Positions 1 through 10,390 of a stretch of DNA of 10,390 bases are shown piece after piece (position 1 is the stretch's first letter; every line of letters starts with the position of its first letter). A program made the translations under genes and the position numbers. The stretch spans positions 1-10,390 of the forward strand of contig JAEOUJ010000003.1 of the NCBI GenBank assembly GCA_016839405.1, read 5' to 3'. The DNA is from Candidatus Gerdarchaeota archaeon. GTDB lineage: Archaea; Asgardarchaeota; Heimdallarchaeia; JABLTI01. The notes beneath the pieces were generated by a model. The model made no database searches, was not told where the DNA came from, and worked only from the letters and a program-made list of their open reading frames with translations.

Positions 1-122
1 AGTAATATTCCTTTACTTTCTAAAAACGCACTAAATTTTTCAATTAAAATTATAGCTTTAGAAATTTCTTCAGAATCTAAGTTCTTTTTTTCTAAATAGG
101 TTTTATATTTATCTAAACTCAT
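1..122 (-). CDS. Unrecognised protein, N-terminal 40 codons only (runs off window)
   Basis: An ATG at 122-120 on the minus strand opens a frame with no stop through position 1, giving 40 codons that begin MSLDKYKTYLEKKNLDSEEI. The visible part is charged and probably all helical (Lys/Glu/Leu rich, heptad-like spacing), with no signal peptide or membrane segment. It loosely resembles the helical N-terminal SAM-like segment of tyrosine recombinases (Tyr-Leu-x-x-Lys pattern), but that is too weak for a call. It lies 106 nt downstream of the membrane acyltransferase gene on the same strand. The gap contains a 12-A run in the minus-strand leader (146-157), so whether the two are cotranscribed is unclear. 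Function unknown. Confidence 0.6.
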   Translation of the reverse strand, partial: MSLDKYKTYLEKKNLDSEEISKAIILIEKFSAFLESKGIL

Positions 123-228
123 TTACAATCATCTTGAATTTTTAGTTTTTTTTTTTTGATGTACAATAATCTAATTATTATTAACTCTTTTAGATTACTC
201 TTATTTTCATCAATCTGATATATCGAAT

Positions 229-2019
229 TTAAAATAAACCTAATACTCCAATTGGTAGGAAGAGAGTTACTAAGATTAATGCGATAAATAACACACATCC
301 AATTATTGAGAGTATAAATGAGGTATTATTTATTTTATTTTTACCATCAGTTTTCTGAGCATTAAGTGAAATTATTATTCCTAAAAAGCTAATGGCCATA
401 AAAAGAATAGAAAATAAACAAACTAGTGATATTATAAGAGCAAATTTGGATTCCCGTTTTACCTTTTGCTTTTGATTTTCTGTTCCAACATCATTCAACT
501 CTATCCAATTAACATTATAGAAAGTCCTATCAACATCAACTAAACCACGTTGCCACCATTTGGTTTTTTCATCAAAAGATTTTCTTCGAATAGGAACAAC
601 ATTATTGGTAAAGGTTCTTATGATCCATTCTAAGGAGCCAAGATATTTTATTTTCTCCCAGTAATAAAGAATGAACGAATAGAGAATATATGTTGTTACT
701 ATCATAAGAATGGTTCCCCACCAAAAGGGTTTTTGATAAGGGGTAAAAGTAAGTATTGATGAAATAAAATAAAAGACGTAAAAATACAACCATTGATTAT
801 TGTAGTTAGAAAACGCGACTATTCCAAATCGTCTAATTATCTTTGTTTTAGGAGCATAAAGATTGCTTTTACCACGAAATTCTATTAAACGAAACATAAA
901 CATGAAAATCATTATACCAAAACCATTTAAAGCTGAAAATTGAGCTAACCAAGAGAAGGGTGGAATGTTAACAACTTCCCCTGGATGTATGACATTCATT
1001 GCATCCGGAGCCCAATGCCGATGAAAGGAGATATAGCGATAAAAAGAAATTGCCACATCAAAAGGATCAGTTCCGGGATTATAGGTTCCATTCATAATCT
1101 GTAATAAAATGAATACAATGCCAATCAAGCCGCTAATAAACATTACAAAACCTATCAAGAACATTTTACGTGGGAAATTCTTTGAAATCTTCTCTTTTGG
1201 TTGTGAAATAACTATTCCAATTATACTTCCGATAAAAGACACTGCTAAATAGGGAAATATTGGTTCAAGTGAACCAGCAAGAGGGGCAAGAAATGGTGCC
1301 CGTAAGATATCCCTAAATGGTTCATAACCAATCCAAGGCATTTGTATTATATGCCCATTGGGATATGTAGCAAAAGGATAACCGTGAACGATTACACCTA
1401 CTAGATCCCAAATTGGTTGAGTTAAACCAATTACAACAATTGCTAGAATAGCATAGCTAATAATCATTCGTTTGGCATTTTTCCAATTATCTTTAAGAGA
1501 TAATAATCCTTGAACGCAGCCGTTAATTATAATGCACCAGGCAATTGTGTGAATTGTTTCAAAAATATTCCAATTATAAAGCATAAGCTCCCAAGGAGTT
1601 TCTGTTGGATTATCTAAATGAAGGAAAAAATGCCCAAATGCTCCATGAGAACCAATTAATCCTTCAGTCAACATAGCAAAAATTAATAACATGAAGCCAC
1701 CAATAATTTGCTTCAAAACTATCCCTTTGATTGAGTGACCTTTATTCAATGCTCTATATGTACTTACCATATTTCCTGATGCTGAGATAAGTAGGAAGAA
1801 ACCAGCAAGACCTCCTAGAAAAGGTAAAATAACTAAAGCTAGAAGATTAATCAAAGCAATACTATTGATATCTGAGAGGAGATCATCTATATTTAGAGTA
1901 TCACTAACCATATGAAGAAAAATCATACCAATAATTGCAAATGCTCGAGTAAGGTCTAGAGTTAGAAATCGTTTTGAGTACTTTTGAGTATCTGTTTCTT
2001 GGAAGGTATTTGTAGCCAT
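229..2019 (-). CDS. Polytopic membrane acyltransferase-like protein (DUF418/DUF1624-like)
   Basis: A 596-aa integral membrane protein with about 12 predicted transmembrane helices. Helix 1 carries RFLTLDLTRAFAIIGMIFLH, matching the LDxxRgxAIxxMxxxH signature of the acyltransferase-3/DUF1624/DUF418 superfamily (Asp, Arg and His all present). A later FETIHTIAWC matches the family's I-L/H-x-I-A motif. Near residue 460 the sequence KIKYLGSLEWIIR resembles the GPLEW end motif of DUF418. Members usually end about there; this one adds roughly 130 residues: a loop, then two more helices (about 530-555 and 570-596) of unknown role. Family knowledge suggests acyl transfer onto lipids or surface glycans at the membrane; the substrate is not visible. 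The ATG at 2019 is preferred; a GTG three codons upstream (2028) is the alternative. No strong ribosome site is seen. Confidence 0.75.
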   Translation of the reverse strand: MATNTFQETDTQKYSKRFLTLDLTRAFAIIGMIFLHMVSDTLNIDDLLSDINSIALINLLALVILPFLGGLAGFFLLISASGNMVSTYRALNKGHSIKGIVLKQIIGGFMLLIFAMLTEGLIGSHGAFGHFFLHLDNPTETPWELMLYNWNIFETIHTIAWCIIINGCVQGLLSLKDNWKNAKRMIISYAILAIVVIGLTQPIWDLVGVIVHGYPFATYPNGHIIQMPWIGYEPFRDILRAPFLAPLAGSLEPIFPYLAVSFIGSIIGIVISQPKEKISKNFPRKMFLIGFVMFISGLIGIVFILLQIMNGTYNPGTDPFDVAISFYRYISFHRHWAPDAMNVIHPGEVVNIPPFSWLAQFSALNGFGIMIFMFMFRLIEFRGKSNLYAPKTKIIRRFGIVAFSNYNNQWLYFYVFYFISSILTFTPYQKPFWWGTILMIVTTYILYSFILYYWEKIKYLGSLEWIIRTFTNNVVPIRRKSFDEKTKWWQRGLVDVDRTFYNVNWIELNDVGTENQKQKVKRESKFALIISLVCLFSILFMAISFLGIIISLNAQKTDGKNKINNTSFILSIIGCVLFIALILVTLFLPIGVLGLF

Positions 2020-2065
2020 ACTAACCACACAATTGTAAAATTAAAACAGAATTTGATACTTTTTG

Positions 2066-2078
2066 AAATATATAAACT
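2066..2078 (-). promoter_or_regulatory. Possible TATA element for the membrane acyltransferase
   Basis: On the minus strand GTTTATATATTTC lies about 50 nt before the ATG at 2019. This is a good match to an archaeal TATA box and would place transcription start near 2045, giving a leader of roughly 25 nt. AT-rich DNA makes such matches common, and no clear BRE precedes it. Confidence 0.35.
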
Positions 2079-2152
2079 TAATTCATAAATAAAAATGAAA
2101 TCACACAGAATTTTAAATGAAAAGGAACAGAAATCAGATTGTTATTTTTAGA

Positions 2153-2185
2153 AATTCAATTAGAATACTCTTTATAAATTGAATT
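2153..2185. repeat. 9-bp AT-rich inverted repeat
   Basis: AATTCAATT (2153-2161) is the exact reverse complement of AATTGAATT (2177-2185), with a 15-nt spacer. It could be an operator or a weak hairpin upstream of the minus-strand acyltransferase gene. In DNA this AT-rich, chance cannot be excluded. Confidence 0.3.
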
Positions 2186-2222
2186 GCAAAACACTTGTAA
2201 ATCAAACTATCTCATTATTTTA

Positions 2223-2273
2223 AAAATTGGACGAGGGTAAAGAATACCCCTGTCACATGAAAAGGGAGTTATT
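2223..2273. repeat. Intergenic hairpin repeat, copy 1
   Basis: First of four related elements, all in the same orientation. The stem is GACGAGGGTA (2230-2239) against TACCCCTGTC (2245-2254) with loop AAGAA, followed by conserved ACATGAAAAGGGAGTTATT. This is the most diverged copy. At the loop-proximal position it has T-A where copies 2-4 have C-G, a compensatory pair change that supports a selected hairpin. It is the only copy not directly beside the 3' end of a recognised gene. Confidence 0.85.
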
Positions 2274-2353
2274 AAGTCTAGGTTCTTTACAATCTAACAT
2301 TGATTTGTATAAAATTTTATAAAGAATATTACATTAAGAAAACAAAAATCTAT

Positions 2354-2459
2354 GGAGGTGCCAGTTAAACAATGATTTACTTAATAGATAGAGTACAAAT
2401 ATTTACATTTAGATTGAACAAATGGCACCTAAGATTGATTGGTTACTAGGAAACCTAGT
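2354..2459 (+). promoter_or_regulatory. Candidate structured leader upstream of the GNAT gene
   Basis: GGAGGTG (2354-2360), an exact anti-Shine-Dalgarno match, sits inside the left arm of an 8-bp perfect inverted repeat: AGGTGCCA 2356-2363 against TGGCACCT 2423-2430. A second tight hairpin, ACTAGG-AAA-CCTAGT, follows at 2445-2459. Pairing of the long arms would hide the ribosome site. A TATA-like stretch at 2305-2324 could start a transcript near 2340. It could be a regulated leader, a small RNA, or debris of a small mobile element. Nothing here matches a riboswitch class I know. Confidence 0.3.
2372..2449 (+). CDS. Possible 25-codon leader ORF
   Basis: An ATG at 2372 opens 25 codons (MIYLIDRVQIFTFRLNKWHL, then five more) ending at TAG 2447-2449. 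It is preceded by GGAGGTG with an 11-nt spacer, slightly long but usable. The peptide is basic and aromatic, and I recognise no family. The stop falls within the 2445-2459 hairpin. The only support is the ribosome site, so this is a weak call; it could be a leader peptide for the GNAT gene 120 nt downstream. Confidence 0.2.
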   Translation: MIYLIDRVQIFTFRLNKWHLRLIGY

Positions 2460-2570
2460 CTTCTTCTGCGTGCTTGAATTAACCTAATTGTAAATGTTAA
2501 CCTACTATTTTGAAAACAACATTGCATAATTGTTAACAGGCAGTTCCTCAGAAATTGAGTGAAAATAAAA

Positions 2571-3713
2571 ATGATAGAACTACAATTAGAAGAATTTGAA
2601 AAAGTTCGAGAATTATTTACAGAAGTTGAATACAACTTGAATTGCATGGTAATAATTGCTGGGATTAACCCAGGTAGGATATGGGTTGATTCAAAAGAGA
2701 AACCTACCAGTGGATTTCTAGTTGACAATATGTGGTCCTTTTTCTTAGCGGGGAATCCAAATAATAAGGAATTCAATGCAACTATTGGGAAGATTCTGAA
2801 AGAGGAAATATTCCCAATTTCAAGTAAGAAGGAAAAAATAACTCATGGTGATTGGGTTTTCTATTATGAAGATCAAGATTGGTTTGAGAAAATAGAAAAC
2901 GAATTTGTGAAAGATCCCATTCCATTGCTTAGATACTATTATGTATTTGATAAATTACTCGTTCCAGATTGGCGAGCTAAAATTCCGAAAGAATTTGAAA
3001 TGAGAAAAATAGATGAGTCTTTGCTAAATCAGAAAAATCTTGAGAATATTGAAGAAATAACAAATTGGATTAATTCTCAGTATGAAAACGAACAAAAATT
3101 CTTGGAAAAAGGATTTGGATTTTGTTTAGTAGAGAATAATAAAACAATCGTTTGTATGTGTCTTTCAGATTGGGGAGTGAAAAATAAAATTGAGATATCA
3201 ATACAAACAGCAGCAGATTACCGCAGAAGAGGATTCGCTACGTTATGTGTAGCTGCGACAGTAGAATATGGCCAAGGAAGAGGTTATCACATAGGATGGC
3301 ACTGCAATCAAGATAATGAAGGATCATGGCGAACAGCAGAAAAAGTAGGCTTTGTAAGGAAGAAAAGCTATGTAGCAGCAAATGGTTTGTACAAAGAAGA
3401 AGATCATTTATCCTTAAATGCTTGGTATAGAGGATTTATTTTAGAGAAACCAGAAGATGGGTTGCAGTACGTCAAGAAGCTAATCGAAATGGGACAATGT
3501 AGACGGAGCTATTTTTTGTATACTCGACTACTAAATAAACTCAAAAAATATCATGAAGCAATAGAAGCATTAAACGAAATAGTGAAAATTGGTCATCCAG
3601 AACCAAACAGATTCAAAGAAGTACTCGAAACACGTGAAGACTTTCAAGAGTTAAGAAAATTAGAAGAATGGAAAACACTAATGAAAAATGTTGAAGAATT
3701 GATCAAAGAATAA
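2571..3713 (+). CDS. GNAT-family N-acetyltransferase with C-terminal TPR-like helices
   Basis: A soluble 380-aa protein. Residues ~1-135 form an N-terminal domain I cannot assign, of the sort found before the catalytic half in the GNAT_acetyltran (PF12746-like) group. The GNAT core is at about 140-290. IEISIQTAADYRRRGFAT (207-224) is motif A, with the Q/R-x-x-R/G-x-G/A acetyl-CoA pyrophosphate loop, and NQDNEGSWRTAEKVGF (246-261) is motif B, where an Asn and the helix to GF are typical. Residues ~310-380 look like a TPR hairpin ending in DFQELRKLEEWKTLM, the usual C-terminal TPR cap, perhaps for partner binding. The likely reaction is acetyl transfer from acetyl-CoA to an amine; substrate unknown. 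The ATG at 2571 is chosen over the GTG at 2559 because GAGTGA lies 8 nt upstream of it. Repeat copies 1 and 2 flank the gene. Confidence 0.8.
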   Translation: MIELQLEEFEKVRELFTEVEYNLNCMVIIAGINPGRIWVDSKEKPTSGFLVDNMWSFFLAGNPNNKEFNATIGKILKEEIFPISSKKEKITHGDWVFYYEDQDWFEKIENEFVKDPIPLLRYYYVFDKLLVPDWRAKIPKEFEMRKIDESLLNQKNLENIEEITNWINSQYENEQKFLEKGFGFCLVENNKTIVCMCLSDWGVKNKIEISIQTAADYRRRGFATLCVAATVEYGQGRGYHIGWHCNQDNEGSWRTAEKVGFVRKKSYVAANGLYKEEDHLSLNAWYRGFILEKPEDGLQYVKKLIEMGQCRRSYFLYTRLLNKLKKYHEAIEALNEIVKIGHPEPNRFKEVLETREDFQELRKLEEWKTLMKNVEELIKE

Positions 3714-3725
3714 TTTGATTAATTG

Positions 3726-3777
3726 AAAATAGGACAGGGGCAAAGAAAGCCCCCGTCACAGGAAAAGGGAGTTTATT
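3726..3777. repeat. Intergenic hairpin repeat, copy 2
   Basis: The stem is GACAGGGGC (3733-3741) against GCCCCCGTC (3749-3757), loop AAAGAAA, followed by ACAGGAAAAGGGAGTT. It fills the whole 59-bp gap between the convergent GNAT gene (stop 3713) and the large surface protein, whose stop codon (3773-3775) overlaps the element's end. Read on the minus strand the stem has no mismatch (one G.U) and is followed by CCTATTTTC, which would suit a transcription terminator for the surface protein gene. Confidence 0.85.
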
Positions 3778-6721
3778 TAAATTTTATTAAATGCTTTTTT
3801 TTATTCTTTTTTTGTAGGATAATAATTATGACAAAAGATAAACCACTGAAAGCAATTATGCTTAATATGTTACCAAATAATGAACTGGTTTCTGTCGAAG
3901 AAGGGCTAATTGATGAAGGTGGATCATCAGGATTAGTGGGATCTGTACCATTAGTAATTTCAGTACTATCGGTAATACCATCTCCATCAGTATCGGGATT
4001 ATTTGGATCAGTGATATAACCATCTTCTCCAACAACTGTTTCTTCAAAATCATTGATGCCATCATCATCTGAATCGCTATCTAAAGGATCTGTTCCAGTG
4101 ACAAAGACTTCTGTGTAATCATCTAAAATATCATTATCTGTATCAATATCATTAGGATCAGTACCTAATGTTGCTTCTGCAAAATCATTTAATCCATCAT
4201 CATCGCTATCTATGTTAAGGGGATCTGATAAATAGGTGTGGACTTCCTCTCCATCTGTCAAACCATCGTTATCTGAATCATCATCTAGAGGATTAGTACC
4301 TTCAGTATATTCATCACCATCGTTTAAACCATCGGAATCAGAATCAGAATTTAATGGATCAGTTATGTAACCATCCAAACCAATAATTAATTCCTCAAAA
4401 TCATCCAATCCATCGTCATCTGTATCATCATTAGTTGGGTCTGTTTGACTGATGTTTATTTCATAATCGTCGGTTAAGCTGTCAGAGTCTGTATCATTAC
4501 TATTAGGATCAGTAATAAAACCATCAGCTCCTAAAACAACCTCTTCGCCATCATAAATAGTATCATCATCTGAATCAGAATCATTAGGGTCTGTATTGTG
4601 AATGTATTCATCTCCATCAAGAAGACCATCGTTATCTGAATCTGAATCAAGAGGATCGGTCATATAACCATCATTACCTAAAATAAGCTCTTCATAGTCG
4701 TTCAATCCATCAGAATCAGTATCAGCATTTGTAGGATCTGTAAAACTTATCCCAATTTCATAATCATCAGTTAAACCATCCGAATCAGAATCATTTGAAA
4801 GAGGATTAGTTATATACCCATCTAAACCTAGTGTGATTTCTTCTCCATCAGGAATAGTATCATCATCACTATCTGAATCAAGAGGATTTGTGTAATAAAT
4901 AAATAATTCATCAGAGTCTAAAATATTATCATCATCTGTGTCATCATCATTTGGATCTGTATTATAGATATTAATTTCATCACCATCTGATATTGTATCA
5001 TCATCAGAATCGGGATCAGTAGGATCTGTAAAAGTAACAGCTATTTCAATCTGATCGTTTAAGCCATCTGAATCTGTATCATTTGAAAGAGGATTTGTAA
5101 TATAACCATCTAATCCTATAGTTACCTCTTCATAGTCATTTATAAGGTCATCATCGGAGTCAGGGTCATTTGGAAATGTATTATTATTGTATTCACCAAT
5201 ATTATTCAGACCATCTCCATCTGGATCTTCTAATGCATCATTACTAAATGGATTTGTGTTATATGTTACTTCCCAATAATCATCCAGAGAATCATCATCT
5301 GTATCATTATCAAATGGATCAGTTCTTGTGAAGTAGATTTCAACCCCATCAACTAATAAATCATTATCATTATCAGGATTGATAGGATTTGTACCAAAGA
5401 AATCATCAGATAGGTCATCCAAATAATCACTATCACTATCCATTTGCCCTGTATTGAAAATAGATCCCTTAAAACTATACCATTGTTGAGTTCCAGAGGT
5501 ACTGATTTCTGTAAAATCCAAACAATACACTTTAGAATCATAGGATCCAAAAATAACCTCTGTTACATTATCATTATCAATATCAACTATCGCAGGATTT
5601 GAAAGAACAATATTCCCTGTATCATAAGACCATTCTTTTCCACCTGTATGGTTTAAACAATATAGATTATGATCCCGTGAACCGATTAAAACCTCAAGTG
5701 TTCCATCTCCATCAAGATCACCCACACTTGGTGTTCCATCAACATCTGCACCAGTTACAAAACTCCATTCCAAACCACCTGTATGGTTAATACAAACAAG
5801 GTCATGAGTTGTTCTCAAACCAACAAGTATTTCTAATGTGCCATCGGCATCGAGATCAGCAATTGCAGGAGACGAGGAGATAAAATCAGATGTTAAATAA
5901 TTCCATTCAATGCTTCCTGTATGACTTATACAACTAATTCTACTTAAATATGATCCAACAAGGATTTCCATGGTTCCATCATTATCAAGATCTGCAACAG
6001 ATGGTGATCCCGGAATTGCTCCTCCTACAGTTGAATACCACTTAGTATTTCCTAGATAATCAAAACAATACAGTCTACTCATATAAGTACCAAAAAGAAT
6101 TTCTAACTCCCCATCATTATCAACATCGGCAATCGCTGCAGTAGAACGGACTATATTAATAATCTCTTTTTTCCATCTTTGTGTACCATTAGCATTTAAA
6201 CAGTAAAAATAAAAATCATCATTTCCAAAAAAAATCTCAAATTCGCCATCATTATCAATATCAGCAATAGCTGGCGAAGTATAAAAATCATCACCTGCAG
6301 AAAAACTCCATTTTTCCATGCCACTTTGATTTAAACAATAAAGCTTATTATCAAGAGATCCAAAAAGAATTTCTAATTCACTATCATTATCAATATCTGC
6401 AACAGTTGGTGATGAGCGGATATCTCCCCCTGTTGTAAAATTCCATTCTTGAGTGCCTAAGTGACTTAAACAGTAAAGATGGTTGTCATTAGAACCAATA
6501 AGCACTTCATTTGTTCCGTCATAATCCAAGTCGACAACAAATGGTGATGAATAGATACCATCTCCAGTTGTATAATTCCATTTAGAGTAAACATCTATTG
6601 CTGGAGGAATAGGTACTTCATTTTCTATTTCGAGGGAATTTGATTTAATATTAAATGGTTTAATCCAAACCATTAATAAAATCAAAACTATCAATATAGA
6701 ATTAATTTTCAAATTTCTCAA
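3773..6721 (-). CDS. Anchored surface protein: eight-repeat FG-GAP/VCBS-like propeller plus 21 TSP3-type Ca2+ repeats
   Basis: A 982-aa exported protein. Residues 1-24 are a signal peptide (MRNLKINSILIVLILLMVWI). Residues ~45-427 hold eight FG-GAP/VCBS-like repeats, each with a calcium-loop motif such as ADIDNDGELEILFGS followed by YCLN..G...W; the recurring Trp and SSPAIAD spacing also resemble PQQ/pyrrolo-quinoline-like propellers. Residues 428-931 hold 21 DxDxDGxxDxxE repeats of the TSP3 type, then a short Ser/Thr/Pro linker, a transmembrane helix (~952-970) and a basic tail. The expected role is a calcium-stiffened ectodomain for adhesion or ligand binding; the ligand is not visible. The start is TTG, with GGTGAT (6730-6725) just upstream. 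The first internal Met (residue 17) would cut the signal peptide. It is a paralogue of the gene at 6881-8872. Confidence 0.85.
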   Translation of the reverse strand: MRNLKINSILIVLILLMVWIKPFNIKSNSLEIENEVPIPPAIDVYSKWNYTTGDGIYSSPFVVDLDYDGTNEVLIGSNDNHLYCLSHLGTQEWNFTTGGDIRSSPTVADIDNDSELEILFGSLDNKLYCLNQSGMEKWSFSAGDDFYTSPAIADIDNDGEFEIFFGNDDFYFYCLNANGTQRWKKEIINIVRSTAAIADVDNDGELEILFGTYMSRLYCFDYLGNTKWYSTVGGAIPGSPSVADLDNDGTMEILVGSYLSRISCISHTGSIEWNYLTSDFISSSPAIADLDADGTLEILVGLRTTHDLVCINHTGGLEWSFVTGADVDGTPSVGDLDGDGTLEVLIGSRDHNLYCLNHTGGKEWSYDTGNIVLSNPAIVDIDNDNVTEVIFGSYDSKVYCLDFTEISTSGTQQWYSFKGSIFNTGQMDSDSDYLDDLSDDFFGTNPINPDNDNDLLVDGVEIYFTRTDPFDNDTDDDSLDDYWEVTYNTNPFSNDALEDPDGDGLNNIGEYNNNTFPNDPDSDDDLINDYEEVTIGLDGYITNPLSNDTDSDGLNDQIEIAVTFTDPTDPDSDDDTISDGDEINIYNTDPNDDDTDDDNILDSDELFIYYTNPLDSDSDDDTIPDGEEITLGLDGYITNPLSNDSDSDGLTDDYEIGISFTDPTNADTDSDGLNDYEELILGNDGYMTDPLDSDSDNDGLLDGDEYIHNTDPNDSDSDDDTIYDGEEVVLGADGFITDPNSNDTDSDSLTDDYEINISQTDPTNDDTDDDGLDDFEELIIGLDGYITDPLNSDSDSDGLNDGDEYTEGTNPLDDDSDNDGLTDGEEVHTYLSDPLNIDSDDDGLNDFAEATLGTDPNDIDTDNDILDDYTEVFVTGTDPLDSDSDDDGINDFEETVVGEDGYITDPNNPDTDGDGITDSTEITNGTDPTNPDDPPSSISPSSTETSSLFGNILSIIAFSGLSFVIIIILQKKNKKKHLIKFK
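3923..5440 (-). repeat. 21-unit TSP3-type repeat array
   Basis: Codes for residues 428-933 of the large surface protein. Each unit starts with an acidic calcium loop (for example DSDNDGLLDGDE) and ends in (T/N)DP or (T/N)NP. Most units are about 22-24 residues; units 5, 9, 11, 13, 15 and 20 are about 27 because of an insert of the form LGxDGYIT. Units with nearly identical protein (5 and 9) differ at several synonymous positions, so the array is not a fresh DNA expansion. Confidence 0.85.
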
Positions 6722-6764
6722 TTAATCACCCACCCTTAATATAACTTAAACATGCATAATAGCT

Positions 6765-6780
6765 ATTAATTTATTTTTCG
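6765..6780 (-). promoter_or_regulatory. BRE/TATA promoter of the large surface protein gene
   Basis: On the minus strand CGAAAAATAAATTAAT begins 59 nt before the TTG start. It combines a BRE-like CGAAAA with an AT-rich TATA segment. A 15-of-16 match lies 56 nt before the paralogue's start (8913-8928). Transcription would begin near 6745, leaving a ~24-nt leader that holds the ribosome site. The conservation between two genes at matched distance is the main support. Confidence 0.6.
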
Positions 6781-6813
6781 TAAAAATAATAAAACAAAAT
6801 CAATAGTTAGAGT

Positions 6814-6862
6814 AAAATTGGACGAGGGCAAGAAGGCCCCCGTCACAGGAAAAGGGATTATT
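6814..6862. repeat. Intergenic hairpin repeat, copy 3
   Basis: The stem is GACGAGGGC (6821-6829) against GCCCCCGTC (6836-6844), loop AAGAAG, followed by ACAGGAAAAGGGATTATT. It is identical to copy 4 over 40 bp (TTGGACG through AAAAGGGA). It sits just after the 3' end of the interrupted paralogue (stop 6881) and 33 bp before the promoter of the next gene. On the minus strand the stem is fully paired with one G.U and is followed by CCAATTTTAC. Confidence 0.88.
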
Positions 6863-6880
6863 TACACTATAAAGAAAAAC

Positions 6881-7672
6881 TCACTTTCTTCGTTTTCGAC
6901 TAATTAATACTATTGATGTTAAAATTACTACAGTAAATACAATACTAGTTGTAAAAATAATGCCTGTTTGTATTGTTGTTGTTATTGTATTATTTAGAGT
7001 AATAGTATCAGGAATTGTAATCGTATCAGGTGGAGGGGTAATTGTTACAGGAGGGGGAGTAATTGTAATAGGTGGTTCAGTGATAGTTGTAGGAGGATGA
7101 TCAAAAGGATCCAAAGGATCTGTACCTACAATTATTTCAATATAATCACTATAACCATCAAAATCTGTATCATAAAGTAGTGGATCTGTACTATAAATGA
7201 AAAGTTCATCACCATCGATTAATCCATCTAAATCAGTATCTGGGTTAATGAGATTTGTACCAAAGATAGTTAATTCTTCCCAATCAAGTAAATTGTCTGA
7301 ATCTGAATCGTTTGATACAGGATTAGAAGAATACAAGAAGATTTCATCCCAATCAGTCAAATTATCTGTATCTGTATCTATACTTAATGGATTGGTTTTG
7401 TAATTTATAGCTTCATCGCCATCCAAAAGTAAATCTGAATCTGTGTCATTGTCAAAGGGATCAGTTTGAAAAGTGAAAATTTCTAACATATCCATTAATA
7501 AATCTGTATCTGTGTCGTTATTGTTTTTATTTGTTCCATAAAATTCTTCAGTTTGATCATCTAAATAATCGGAGTCACTATCTGGTTGCCCTGTTCTGAA
7601 AAATGACCCGCGATGAGTATACCATTGCTGATTTCCTGATGAAATAACACCACTTAAACCTATACAATCCAA
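6881..7672 (-). CDS. C-terminal part of interrupted surface protein: TSP3-type repeats, TIT-P stalk, TM anchor
   Basis: This is the same reading frame as the gene at 7685-8872, separated only by the in-frame TGA at 7685-7687. The frame downstream has only a TTG at 7672 as a nominal start, no ribosome site and no signal peptide, so it is almost certainly not a separate gene. It encodes the end of the last propeller repeat (QQWYTHRGSFFRTGQ matches QQWYSFKGSIFNTGQ in the larger paralogue), seven TSP3-type repeats, a Thr/Pro stalk with TIT(E/P)PP repeats, a transmembrane helix (TTSIVFTVVILTSIVLIS) and the tail RKRRK. The end is a genuine TGA at 6881-6883. Without read-through this half would be lost and the upstream part would lack its anchor. 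Full length would be 663 residues. Confidence 0.7.
   Translation of the reverse strand: MDCIGLSGVISSGNQQWYTHRGSFFRTGQPDSDSDYLDDQTEEFYGTNKNNNDTDTDLLMDMLEIFTFQTDPFDNDTDSDLLLDGDEAINYKTNPLSIDTDTDNLTDWDEIFLYSSNPVSNDSDSDNLLDWEELTIFGTNLINPDTDLDGLIDGDELFIYSTDPLLYDTDFDGYSDYIEIIVGTDPLDPFDHPPTTITEPPITITPPPVTITPPPDTITIPDTITLNNTITTTIQTGIIFTTSIVFTVVILTSIVLISRKRRK
6968..7096 (-). repeat. Thr/Pro-rich stalk coding repeat
   Basis: Encodes about 43 residues built on imperfect copies of TIT-(E/P)PP between the TSP3-type repeats and the membrane helix. At DNA level the plus strand shows recurring GG-rich blocks followed by GTAATTGT. Such segments usually form extended stalks and are often O-glycosylated; glycosylation here is inference. 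Confidence 0.6.
7100..7582 (-). repeat. Seven-unit TSP3-type repeat array
   Basis: Seven units each open with a DxDxDxxxDxxE calcium loop, for example DTDLDGLIDGDE and DTDFDGYSDYIE. All are ~21-23 residues, and the long GxDGYIT variant of the larger paralogue is absent. The first unit (PDSDSDYLDD) aligns with MDSDSDYLDD of the paralogue, so the propeller/array boundary is conserved and only the repeat number differs (7 against 21). Confidence 0.8.
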
Positions 7673-7684
7673 ATCATTACCGCC

Positions 7685-7687
7685 TCA
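7685..7687 (-). other. In-frame TGA interrupting the eighth propeller repeat
   Basis: The frame reads ...SDGLSEILI-TGA-GGNDLDCIGL... and stays open in the same frame on both sides. In the other propeller repeats of the same family the residue after E(I/V)L(I/F) is mostly Gly (EILFGS, EVLIGS). GGA to TGA is a single base change, so a nonsense mutation or a consensus error is the simplest cause. TGA is the ordinary stop of this same gene at 6881-6883, so global recoding is unlikely. Confidence 0.75.
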
Positions 7688-8872
7688 AATTAGAATTTCA
7701 GATAAACCATCTGAATCAACATCAGCTATTATAGGAGACGAATATAAACTTCCTATTAAAATATCATCTAACCAACCACCATATTTATCATAACAGATTA
7801 AATTGCCTTGTGCATGAAATATTATTTCCATTACACTATCATTATTAATATCTGAAATTGCTGGAGAAGGATAATGAAATTGATAATCGCCTGACATTAA
7901 CCATTCATCTGTTCCTAGATGACTAAGACAAAGTAAATTACTAATATCATCATTGCCTGTAATTACTTCATAAAATCCATCTTGATCAATATCAGCAACT
8001 GCTGGTGAAGTTAAAATATAAACGCCAGGGATTGAAAAAAACCATTTTAATATAAAATTATCTATTTCTGTATCCAATTCCAAACAATACATTCCATTAC
8101 CCATATCACCTTCTCCAGGGACAACAATATCTAATATCCCATTTTGATCAAAATCTGCAATTGCTGGAGAAGCATGTGTATAAAATGGATAGCTTAGGAA
8201 ACAATCTCCGCCTGAATCTAAAATATCGATATTACCTCCGGGAAGAATTACTTCCATTGAACCATCATTATTTAAATCTGCTACAGTTGGAATAAGTCGT
8301 TCTAACACACCAAAATTTGCACTCCAATAAAGTGAACCGTTATGAAAAAGGCAATATGTCCAAAATTGTGTACTAATTATAACATTTAACAGACCATCAT
8401 TATTTATATCAACAATAACAGCTGATGATTGAATATCAGCATCAGTTTCATAAGACCAAAATAAATCACCATTAGAATTAAGACAGTATAAATAATCATC
8501 AATTGACCCAACAACAATTTCTGGATCATTATCATGATTTAAATCAACAATAACCGGTGAAGCTACAACATCCCCGCCAGTAGTAAAATTCCAAATTAAA
8601 CCACCCGTAGAATTTACACAATAAATTTTATTATCATTAGAACCAAAAAAAATTTCTAATAAACCATCACCCTCTAAATCATACACTGAGGGAGTTGAAA
8701 CAATAGTACCTCCAGAATTAAAGGACCATTTTTTATAGAAACCTAAAGCTTCAGGTTGAAAATAATCATTAATAGGATAATCATAATGTGTTCCATAATT
8801 AAATCTAATTTTCAATAATAAAAAGCAAATTATCAAGAAAAAGCAAAGGAATTTCTTTTTAGTATTAAGCAA
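7685..8872 (-). CDS. N-terminal part of interrupted surface protein: signal peptide and FG-GAP/VCBS-like propeller
   Basis: 395 residues before the TGA. Residues 1-27 form a signal peptide (MLNTKKKFLCFFLIICFLLL). Eight FG-GAP/VCBS-like repeats follow, with calcium loops such as YDLEGDGLLEIFFGS and ADLNNDGSMEVILPG, each followed by a C-x-x-x-x-G-x-x-x-W segment. Several loops are less canonical than in the 982-aa paralogue (for example NHDNDPEIVVGS). The eighth repeat is cut by the stop. Intact, the protein would be an anchored surface propeller like its neighbour. The start is TTG: GGGTGG (8885-8880) lies 7 nt upstream and no usable ATG exists before the propeller. The downstream half is at 6881-7672. 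It may be a young pseudogene or a sequencing artefact; if the stop is real, the product is a secreted, unanchored propeller. Confidence 0.75.
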   Translation of the reverse strand: MLNTKKKFLCFFLIICFLLLKIRFNYGTHYDYPINDYFQPEALGFYKKWSFNSGGTIVSTPSVYDLEGDGLLEIFFGSNDNKIYCVNSTGGLIWNFTTGGDVVASPVIVDLNHDNDPEIVVGSIDDYLYCLNSNGDLFWSYETDADIQSSAVIVDINNDGLLNVIISTQFWTYCLFHNGSLYWSANFGVLERLIPTVADLNNDGSMEVILPGGNIDILDSGGDCFLSYPFYTHASPAIADFDQNGILDIVVPGEGDMGNGMYCLELDTEIDNFILKWFFSIPGVYILTSPAVADIDQDGFYEVITGNDDISNLLCLSHLGTDEWLMSGDYQFHYPSPAISDINNDSVMEIIFHAQGNLICYDKYGGWLDDILIGSLYSSPIIADVDSDGLSEILI

Positions 8873-8912
8873 TTCTTTCCCACCCTGATAGTATAGTAAT
8901 ATAACCCTTAAA

Positions 8913-8928
8913 ATTCATTTATTTTTCG
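8913..8928 (-). promoter_or_regulatory. BRE/TATA promoter of the interrupted surface protein gene
   Basis: CGAAAAATAAATGAAT on the minus strand, 56 nt before the TTG start, matches the promoter of the neighbouring paralogue at 15 of 16 positions. The match extends upstream (ATTATTTTT, one variable base, then CGAAAAATAAAT) and recurs downstream as GTTATATTA in both leaders. The upstream ATTATTTTT and the AAAAATAAAT form an imperfect inverted repeat that might be a regulator site. Confidence 0.6.
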
Positions 8929-8965
8929 GAAAAATAATCAAAAAAACCTGAATTTAAGAAGGTGG

Positions 8966-9014
8966 AATTTGGACGAGGGCAAGAAGGCCCCCGTCACAGG
9001 AAAAGGGAGTTATT
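8966..9014. repeat. Intergenic hairpin repeat, copy 4
   Basis: The stem is GACGAGGGC (8972-8980) against GCCCCCGTC (8987-8995), loop AAGAAG, followed by ACAGGAAAAGGGAGTTATT. It matches copy 3 over 40 bp. It lies between the 3' region of the last gene (stop 9144) and the promoter of the interrupted surface gene. The T-rich segment after the stem on the minus strand is weaker here (CCAAATTCC) than in copies 1-3. Confidence 0.88.
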
Positions 9015-9102
9015 TATTGGGGAGAGAGGTTTATGGGATTCGGAGAGCAGCATTAAAAAAGAATTAAATTTGCTCTCCGAAATATTACTTGGTACTCCCT
9101 TT
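9002..9102. repeat. Nested inverted repeats downstream of the last gene
   Basis: Inner arms TTCGGAGAGCA (9039-9049) and TGCTCTCCGAA (9071-9081) are an 11-bp perfect inverted repeat with a 21-nt AT-rich loop. Outer arms AAAGGGAGT (9002-9010) and ACTCCCTTT (9094-9102) give another 9 bp, the left arm being the end of hairpin repeat copy 4. Another GGAGAG at 9021-9026 could compete for the CTCTCC arm. It is 42-142 nt past the stop of the minus-strand gene at 9144, so it may be a 3'-UTR fold or terminator, or a small MITE-like relic. Confidence 0.5.
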
Positions 9103-9143
9103 ATAAATAGTTGTCAGTTTATTTTCTTAGCTTTCTTTTCTTT

Positions 9144-10390
9144 TTAAACTATAGTTTCTAATTCTTTTATTTTTTTCTTTGTTTTCTTTCTTCTTCTAAT
9201 TATTAATATTGGTGCTAGTATTATTGCTACTATTCCTGTTATGAATCCTAACCATGATGCTGTATAAATTAATGTTAATTTCGTTTCTGATTTCACTAAT
9301 TGTGTTCCGAATATTTTTACTACTTCCATTTCTTGCATATTTGTCATATCTATTACTACTAAGTAATTTGTTCTCCAGTAGGACCCTTGATTTACATAAG
9401 CATAATTGTCTTTTATTGCCCCATTAAATAATATATAATCACACTCACATATTCCTTTTAGCTCTCTATTTTCCCAATCTGCTATTTCATATATACTTAA
9501 ATTCGTACTATGTAATGTATACACATAATTATTTCTTATTGCTATAATTGACCCTATATCCTGATACTCTAATTCACATATTTTTGTTAGATTTTCTCTA
9601 TTTGTTAAATCATAAACATGTTGTTTTGAACTAAATCCAGTCGCCCAAACATCCATTTTTGTTACAAAGTAATTATCATCCACTATGAAATCTAGCCAAT
9701 GGGTTGATAATGTGTCATTACTTTTCATTATTTTTACTTTTACTAAATGGTAATCCTCTTGTATTGTAAATATCCCTAACGCTAAATCACTGTTCTCATC
9801 TATATAAGCTATATATGCTTTACTTTCTCTTATCTTTATACCAAAAAGATTTCCTTTTTCTTCAAAAAGTTCCTCTGTAGTATTGATTTGGCACTGATAT
9901 TCATATGTATTCATATTTATTCTATCTTGGTAAATTGTCGTTCCATTTTGCTTTAAATGATAAATTATTACTTCTTGTTCTTCACTTATAAATTGAAAAC
10001 TTGTCATATAGGAACTTACTTCACTTTCAACAGGAATGCTTTCCACTAATTTTGGATTTCTTATTTTACTTAAATCATAAATTTGTATTTCATATGTATA
10101 ATTGTCTAAATCATCACGATATCTTGTGTAACAAATCAATTTATTTTTATAAATAAAATTTTTAATAAAAGATCTTGCTGATGAATCAAATGTTACTCTT
10201 TTTTTTGGATTTTCTTTATTTGTTATATCAAAAAAATAGCTATTATACCTATCTTGTACTATCAAGATATCCTCATTTACAACAATATCTGTTACTATTT
10301 GTTGTGTTAATGGATTTTTTATTGCTAATCCTTCTTCTTTTTCCTGATTTATGCTCATACAGTACATAGATGGCGTTAAAAATATGACTA
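9144..10390 (-). CDS. Anchored surface protein with LVIVD-like repeats (N-terminus beyond window)
   Basis: The frame is open from the window edge to TAA at 9144-9146. An ATG at 10367 is not the true start: codons before it read VIFLTPS without a stop, which looks like the end of a signal peptide, so the gene begins outside the window. The visible ~414 residues contain recurrent segments such as YFFDITNKENPKK, IYDLSKIRNPKLV, VYDLTNRENLTKI, IYEIADWENRELK and VIDMTNMQEMEVV, which match the idea of LVIVD/choice-of-anchor beta-propeller repeats (aromatic/Val, D-x-(T/S), N-P). It ends with a transmembrane helix (~364-390 counted from the ATG at 10367) and a Lys/Arg-rich tail (RRRKKTKKK). It has no DxDxDG calcium loops, so it is not a close paralogue of the two TSP3 proteins. 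Likely an extracellular domain facing outward; ligand unknown. Confidence 0.7.
   Translation of the reverse strand, partial: VIFLTPSMYCMSINQEKEEGLAIKNPLTQQIVTDIVVNEDILIVQDRYNSYFFDITNKENPKKRVTFDSSARSFIKNFIYKNKLICYTRYRDDLDNYTYEIQIYDLSKIRNPKLVESIPVESEVSSYMTSFQFISEEQEVIIYHLKQNGTTIYQDRINMNTYEYQCQINTTEELFEEKGNLFGIKIRESKAYIAYIDENSDLALGIFTIQEDYHLVKVKIMKSNDTLSTHWLDFIVDDNYFVTKMDVWATGFSSKQHVYDLTNRENLTKICELEYQDIGSIIAIRNNYVYTLHSTNLSIYEIADWENRELKGICECDYILFNGAIKDNYAYVNQGSYWRTNYLVVIDMTNMQEMEVVKIFGTQLVKSETKLTLIYTASWLGFITGIVAIILAPILIIRRRKKTKKKIKELETIV

Follow-up and report, generated by a model that had tools for sequence, protein, structure and literature searches.

The core boxes of integron attC sites read RYYYAAC and GTTRRRY. 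Integrons are known in archaea and are enriched in the Asgard archaea, according to the excerpted source (PMC9668308), and a report on Heimdallarchaeum mobile elements describes elements sited at tRNA genes, its excerpts mentioning nothing like the stacks below (PMC8813620). Here we analyse a stretch of 10,390 nucleotides from Candidatus Gerdarchaeota archaeon (assembly GCA_016839405.1, contig JAEOUJ010000003.1, positions 1 to 10,390 of the forward strand; hereafter the window), in which four co-oriented repeats lie between neighbouring genes. The best explanation we can offer, to which we give a probability of roughly 0.55, is that each repeat reproduces the 3' end of a small RNA (sRNA) gene, used as a repeated insertion site for mostly single-gene units. 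The arrangement resembles a natural platform for collecting genes, one that we have not found described. Gene gain and exchange in Asgard archaea bear on models of eukaryote origin, and an sRNA-anchored cassette platform would show that behaviour like that of integrons can arise at another type of site, perhaps through another enzyme. Experiments could start from a defined site, from the candidate recombinase or from what would be a new archaeal RNA family, and the repeat provides a sequence marker for arrays that standard integron-site searches would probably miss.

A repeat search of the window returned one four-copy family, all on the plus strand (2225-2267, 3728-3770, 6815-6857 and 8966-9008), with a core of about 43 bp made up of a GC-rich hairpin and a GGAAAAGGGA tail, in the same orientation all four times. 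The core CCCCNGTCACANGAAAAGGGA has four exact matches in the window against none in 200 shuffles, and a fifth core copy was not found there even with up to three mismatches allowed. The four near-identical, same-orientation repeats described in an earlier note on this DNA are thus confirmed as real, co-oriented and far above chance, and they are indeed GC-rich patches (0.47–0.63, against 0.31 for the window). Plus-strand folding of the hairpin gave z-scores of -1.7, -3.3, -2.8 and -2.7 for copies 1 to 4; copy 1 is weak, equally good folding being reached in 14 of 200 shuffles. On the opposite strand the two copies tested gave z = -3.0 and -4.6. The repeats as delimited by the R1 model are:

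2202..2271, plus strand: repeat copy 1, short, RNA tail only (67.3 bits)
3705..3774, plus strand: repeat copy 2, short, RNA tail only (82.7 bits)
6794..6861, plus strand: repeat copy 3, short, RNA tail only (72.4 bits)
8943..9012, plus strand: repeat copy 4, within the full RNA gene (69.7 bits)

The first reading had overlooked that conservation of the copy at 8966 extends as far as about 9110, and that the mismatch pattern indicates a minus-strand transcript. This long copy looks like a gene for an apparently noncoding RNA, whose predicted parts, in minus-strand order, are a TATA-like box, hairpin 2, a CU-rich linker with two conserved unpaired segments, hairpin 1 and a T-rich stretch. Long copies in related genomes were sorted into types A, B, C and D, names coined in this analysis, and the window gene is kept in eight other type-A full copies.

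8945..9085, minus strand: proposed small RNA gene, complete, a type-A full copy with approximate ends (conservation, R2 model, pairing bias)
9100..9110, minus strand: TATA-like box of the RNA gene, CTATTTATAAA on the minus strand (by-eye reading of aligned full copies)
9039..9081, minus strand: hairpin 2, near the RNA 5' end, arms 9039-9049 and 9071-9081 (covariation)
9019..9029, minus strand: conserved unpaired CCUCUCUCCCC, which is GGGGAGAGAGG on the plus strand (alignment of 20 full copies; pattern searches)
8999..9009, minus strand: conserved unpaired CUCCCUUUUCC (alignments)
8971..8995, minus strand: hairpin 1, terminator-like, near the RNA 3' end (folding, mismatch pattern)

Because mismatches in hairpin 1, read on the plus strand, are dominated by A.C (49, against 12 G.T, in 41 copies) and folding is better on the opposite strand in 47 of 54 copies, the transcript most likely lies on the minus strand; hairpin 2 mismatches lean the same way, 7 to 2, which is not significant. 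A plus-strand RNA model was dropped owing to this hairpin 1 pattern and to the TATA-like box at the other end, the box itself being judged by eye. The models R1–R3 had been built on the plus strand; their matches are valid as sequence matches, and their pairing rules are not ideal. Among ten A and B full copies, 8 of the 11 pairs of hairpin 2 show changes on both sides; the covariation score over both helices was 0.282 against 0.131 in shuffles, none of 500 reaching it, and the count of further pair types in both helices was no better than in shuffles (303 of 500). A leader peptide after GGGGAGAGAGGTTTATG was rejected because its frame is not kept (the type-B copy of G004 has a stop after two codons, and one type-C copy of G007 and type D have no ATG) while hairpin 2 covaries. 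Rfam gave 11 matches in the window, all under gathering scores, including a sub-threshold, chance-level rox1 match at 9032-9084 (E 4).

In CU-rich regulatory sRNAs such as RsaE, as in this RNA, hairpins flank unpaired motifs rich in C and U, which have the potential to pair with Shine-Dalgarno sequences. Unlike RsaE, the RNA proposed here is archaeal, the likeness lying in motif and predicted structure. AGAGG stands ahead of 9 of 195 ATG starts, against one in a control stretch. That the RNA might act as a regulator by pairing with Shine-Dalgarno regions is a weaker suggestion, and one separate from the stacking claim.

On the minus-strand assignment, the short copies correspond to the 3' end of the RNA gene: those at 2223, 3726 and 6814 keep just its final ~70 bp, around the terminator-like hairpin, and the outer edge of CUCCCUUUUCC is the point where short copies part from full ones. 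Relatives show the same two kinds, some copies extending into a long conserved stretch, GTTATTT...GGGGAGAGAGGTTTATGGG, and a second hairpin, as the 8966 copy does, and the remaining ones diverging directly past GGGAG. A scan of genome contigs for the core found it in 13 stretches, 12 of them in Asgard/Heimdallarchaeota metagenome-assembled genomes (MAGs), so that further copies do exist elsewhere; the thirteenth (L003), in a Dehalococcoidia MAG, was set aside as chance, having no preceding hairpin, with no R1 match in L067 at E≤1. R1 matched 9 of 227 Asgard genomes at E≤0.001, namely all nine analysed genomes of one Heimdallarchaeota order, each of which R2 also matched. Each has between 1 and 13 R1 matches (E≤0.1), mostly clustered and strong at few loci only, which does not fit the dispersed element resembling repetitive extragenic palindromic (REP) sequences that the earlier note had considered.

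Outside the order, R2 matches in G024, G026, G056, G141 and G174 (E 0.002–0.0095) and a single pattern match in G076 were set aside as probable chance. G020, likewise outside, has two strong type-D matches on short contigs, for which misbinning and wider spread are indistinguishable; the two contigs (L090, L091) carry different upstream genes and a common exact 143-bp end starting at the edge of the type-D element, which could reflect strain variation or two copies. Nothing in viral contigs matched the core of type A or of type B, or the 352-aa recombinase discussed below.

Full A and B copies occupy conserved chromosomal places. An AMMECR1 gene cluster adjoins A in seven of the eight other loci (the exception, L044, being a short contig) and an NTPase gene adjoins B in all six loci clustered. 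In the representatives annotated with Pfam, A is accompanied by genes for aldo-keto reductase, AMMECR1, Mut7-C, amidohydrolase and CBS proteins, and B by genes for cupin, NTPase, zinc ribbon, GNAT and EAP30/Vps36-like proteins; the EAP30/Vps36-like (ESCRT-II) gene lies a few genes from a type-B RNA locus (L061 11215-12255).

At these two paralogous loci the arrangement is RNA gene, unit, RNA tail, unit, RNA tail, and this two-locus stack anatomy is well supported. Seven arrays were found, of type A in the window, G002 and G008, and of type B in G002, G004, G008 and G064. The 31 R1 matches (E≤0.01) on the seven array contigs share one orientation per contig. The intervals between neighbouring copies number 25, of which 19 hold one open reading frame (ORF) of at least 80 aa and five hold two, the interrupted window gene being one of the five; the last has none under this filter because its 344-aa ORF overlaps a copy. 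Units measure ~0.4–3.4 kb between tails, and an integrase gene was not recognised among the part of the unit genes whose proteins were scanned with Pfam. The contig of the G002 B array has no full copy; a full B copy lies on another G002 contig.

Every one of the 28 short copies tested resembles the full copies of its own locus type more closely than those of the other, even though G002 and G008 carry both types; the test omits types C and D and the degenerate copies L063 18627 and L072 1210. The full copy of the same genome was uniquely best for two of the 28 and tied best for 17. Identity to the resident full copy drops with distance from it (25 copies in six arrays, stratified permutation p=0.001, pooled rho -0.55). 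Three arrays show a strong trend (rho -0.84 to -0.87; just three short copies in one of these), and G002 A a weaker one (rho -0.6); the sixth array, in G064, contributes two short copies. G002 B is omitted, its contig having no full copy, while the degenerate copy L063 18627 is included as placed by alignment, and the cross-contig order in G002 A and G008 A (L048, L065) is assumed from shared GNAT sequence. Some distant copies are degenerate. RNA copies of the 3' part alone (the promoter side) were not found within the order at E 0.01. Close to a contig end in G007 (C77) lies a short type-C copy (L060 972-1041), suggesting that type-C RNA loci may also carry stacks.

The degeneracy of the far copies argues against the view that these copies act as terminators or as signals for 3' processing, common to neighbouring genes and kept for that function. 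Hairpin 1 with its T-rich stretch is terminator-like on the minus strand, a terminator scan detects two copies, and several genes finish near one; a hand count, however, puts unit genes on the RNA strand in just 9 of 13 cases for type A and 9 of 18 for type B, and we think this account improbable. The 3'-end or terminator signal of the earlier note is partly borne out, in that the repeat forms the 3' end of a minus-strand RNA gene; a general terminator it is not, since distant copies decay and unit genes run both ways.

Under the insertion-site explanation, an intact RNA gene would stand at one end of the stack, and every unit would then be followed by a short copy of the RNA tail, consisting of the terminator-like hairpin, a CUCCC motif and a T-rich stretch. 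New units would enter beside the intact RNA gene, leaving the RNA whole, and would displace older units and their decaying tails outward, as integron cassettes stack at attI. What the comparison of genomes shows is a common anatomy at the two paralogous loci, tails of matching type, one shared orientation, a trend to decay and one exchanged unit. Polar growth and tails that match the resident locus would also follow from a duplicating integration, Cas1/casposase-like or other, that copied the resident RNA tail as a long target-site duplication; this is very improbable, Cas1 being present in three of the nine genomes (G004, G005, G064) and not found in the array-bearing G002 and G008.

The exchanged unit, cl33, is a B-locus gene for a protein of 624–627 aa without a Pfam domain. 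Its products in G002 and G008 are 98.1% identical, and the genes differ at 5 of 192 fourfold sites, against 63 of 221 (28.5%) for six flanking genes on the same contigs. In G002 cl33 lies directly beside the RNA gene; in G008 the two are separated by 4.4 kb that hold three units. The similarity ends ~20 bp outside hairpin 1, inside the tail. A chimeric assembly join at this boundary is possible; it would be expected instead in the longest shared word, which is the core. At least one unit has been exchanged between genomes, so that the copies are not purely local duplication scars, and the related genomes support the earlier note in seeing a recombination point by which single-gene units can move. 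Other shared units (GNAT, cl17, a methyltransferase and a 189-aa gene) have a copy at one or both ends and have diverged about as far as their flanks.

Exchange of this kind might also have come about with no dedicated enzyme, if the RNA 3' end had first been duplicated and units had later been multiplied, lost and swapped through RecA-type homologous recombination between the ~70-bp repeats. Such repeats are long enough for homologous exchange, paralogous units do lie side by side (the window surface proteins; cl17 twice in G008), and no enzyme is linked to the arrays. This leaves unexplained why different genes have one and the same repeat at both ends, why each of the two paralogous RNA loci has done so with its own tail type, and why decay is polar; we regard it as unlikely, if well worth keeping in view.

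In preferring insertion at the RNA 3' end, we infer that exchange is site-specific and that an order-specific, XerA-like tyrosine recombinase carries it out in trans. The candidate, a 352-aa protein, was found at E≤1e-20 in six of the 227 Asgard genomes, every one of them a member of the nine-genome order. XerC-like and XerA proteins are its nearest solved relatives; it falls under the archaeal XerA cut-off (119 against 220 bits). A protein search at E≤1e-30 gave 27 relatives with identities of 63% or more, under the organism names Heimdallarchaeota, 'Asgard group' and, once, 'Thorarchaeota'. It is the sole PF00589 match in G002, G007 and G009, and G001 and G006 have no such match; PF00589 genes sit on contigs other than those of the arrays. 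By eye, the recombinase has a cysteine-rich insert ahead of its catalytic domain (L079 1832-2890 and relatives). Near several type-D RNAs (L054, L066, L074, L075, L092) lies a family of ~580-590-aa proteins with a helix-turn-helix-like stretch by eye; as a recombinase it was set aside, the four or five copies scanned having no match in Pfam or NCBIfam.

It is tempting to go further and propose an unrecognised Asgard gene-capture system, in which paralogous sRNA genes dock units with 3' ends carried by, or copied beside, each unit, a host-borne, order-specific XerA-like recombinase with a cysteine-rich insert acts in trans, and at least two separately addressed arrays occupy one chromosome. We advance this only tentatively.

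Several observations weigh against the explanation we favour. For nine of the 28 short copies the full copy of a different genome is a closer match than that of the genome they lie in, and G008 A shows no fall in identity with distance (rho +0.11). No short A copy was recognised at the A loci of G001, G004, G005, G006 and G007, although the neighbouring genes there vary. A single clean exchange boundary was found, and in G002 the methyltransferase and 189-aa units touch a copy at one end only. The relatives are all MAGs, so that chimeric joins at repeats are possible. The recombinase was not found in G001, G006 and G064, which as MAGs may be incomplete, and G064 has an array; R1 is absent from 11 stretches around integrases, and no recombinase adjoins an array. 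Its co-occurrence with the RNA could come from shared ancestry alone.

In the window the repeats separate the genes much as the earlier note had it, with GNAT, the surface protein and the interrupted paralogue each set apart:

2559..3713, plus strand: unit encoding a GNAT acetyltransferase, 384 aa (PF12746, E 1.6e-36)
3773..6721, minus strand: unit encoding a beta-propeller/TSP3-repeat surface protein, 982 aa (ORF list, Pfam)
6881..8872, minus strand: unit with a paralogous surface-protein gene containing an in-frame stop (ORFs 6881-7672 and 7685-8872; Pfam for the second ORF)

Units homologous to the window GNAT are present in the G002 and G008 arrays. An in-frame TGA at 7685-7687 on the minus strand breaks the second surface-protein gene in two (ORFs 7685-8872 and 6881-7672); it could reflect a nonsense change, recoding or an error of assembly. 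Paired segments lie 5' of GNAT (AGGTGCCA/TGGCACCT at 2355-2362 and 2423-2430; ACTAGG/CCTAGT at 2445-2459); the region 2354-2459 resembles sequence in G002 and G008 and is possibly another RNA element.

Searches of open-licence papers for gene cassettes in Heimdallarchaea, for noncoding RNA, repeats and mobile elements there, and for archaeal attachment sites at small RNA genes brought up no such system among the entries listed, which is not proof of novelty. Among described systems, integrons and the archaeal clusters of attC sites lacking integron-integrases (CALINs), in the parts of the source available (PMC9668308), resemble these arrays in their tandem, mostly single-gene units with co-oriented hairpin-forming sites between them, in polar stacking at one end, and in having been reported in Asgard MAGs. 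Given single-gene cassettes, such sites and the known Asgard integrons, a canonical integron or CALIN missed by earlier scans might be supposed; we find this scarcely credible. The RYYYAAC...GTTRRRY pair occurs in none of the 44 A and B copies; GTTRRRY alone occurs once per strand among them, and GGGAGTT never extends as GTTRRRY. Against the integron-integrase model (cut-off 265 bits) the 352-aa recombinase scores 36 bits and two other PF00589 proteins 51–52 bits, in a partial scan of PF00589 proteins. An integron reading with crossover at GGGAG|TT was discarded, the core boxes being absent and the sole exchange boundary lying elsewhere. Unlike integrons, then, the arrays have genes in both orientations and no IntI found beside them, and they are anchored at an RNA gene rather than at attI beside intI.

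Archaeal integrative elements at tRNA-gene 3' ends, as far as the accessible portion of the source describes them (PMC6563490), also target the 3' end of an RNA gene, leave that gene intact and are flanked by direct repeats of its end. They differ in that the units here are small (~0.4–3.4 kb), have no recognised integrase gene, build long stacks and have an sRNA-like target. With the dif (pdif) modules of Acinetobacter, in the extracts consulted (PMC6449649), the arrays would share discrete gene modules bounded by sites for a host Xer-type recombinase acting in trans, a likeness that is hypothetical here, as is any link to XerCD/dif; unlike pdif modules they form a chromosomal stack at an RNA gene, with a longer site that is the RNA tail. 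Hairpin 1 is an inverted repeat with a 6–8 nt centre, and no dif site of these genomes was identified for comparison. The system thus combines an integron-like manner of working with the geometry of an RNA-gene-targeted element, and as it lacks a defining feature of each of these families, we assign it to neither and file it under no known family.

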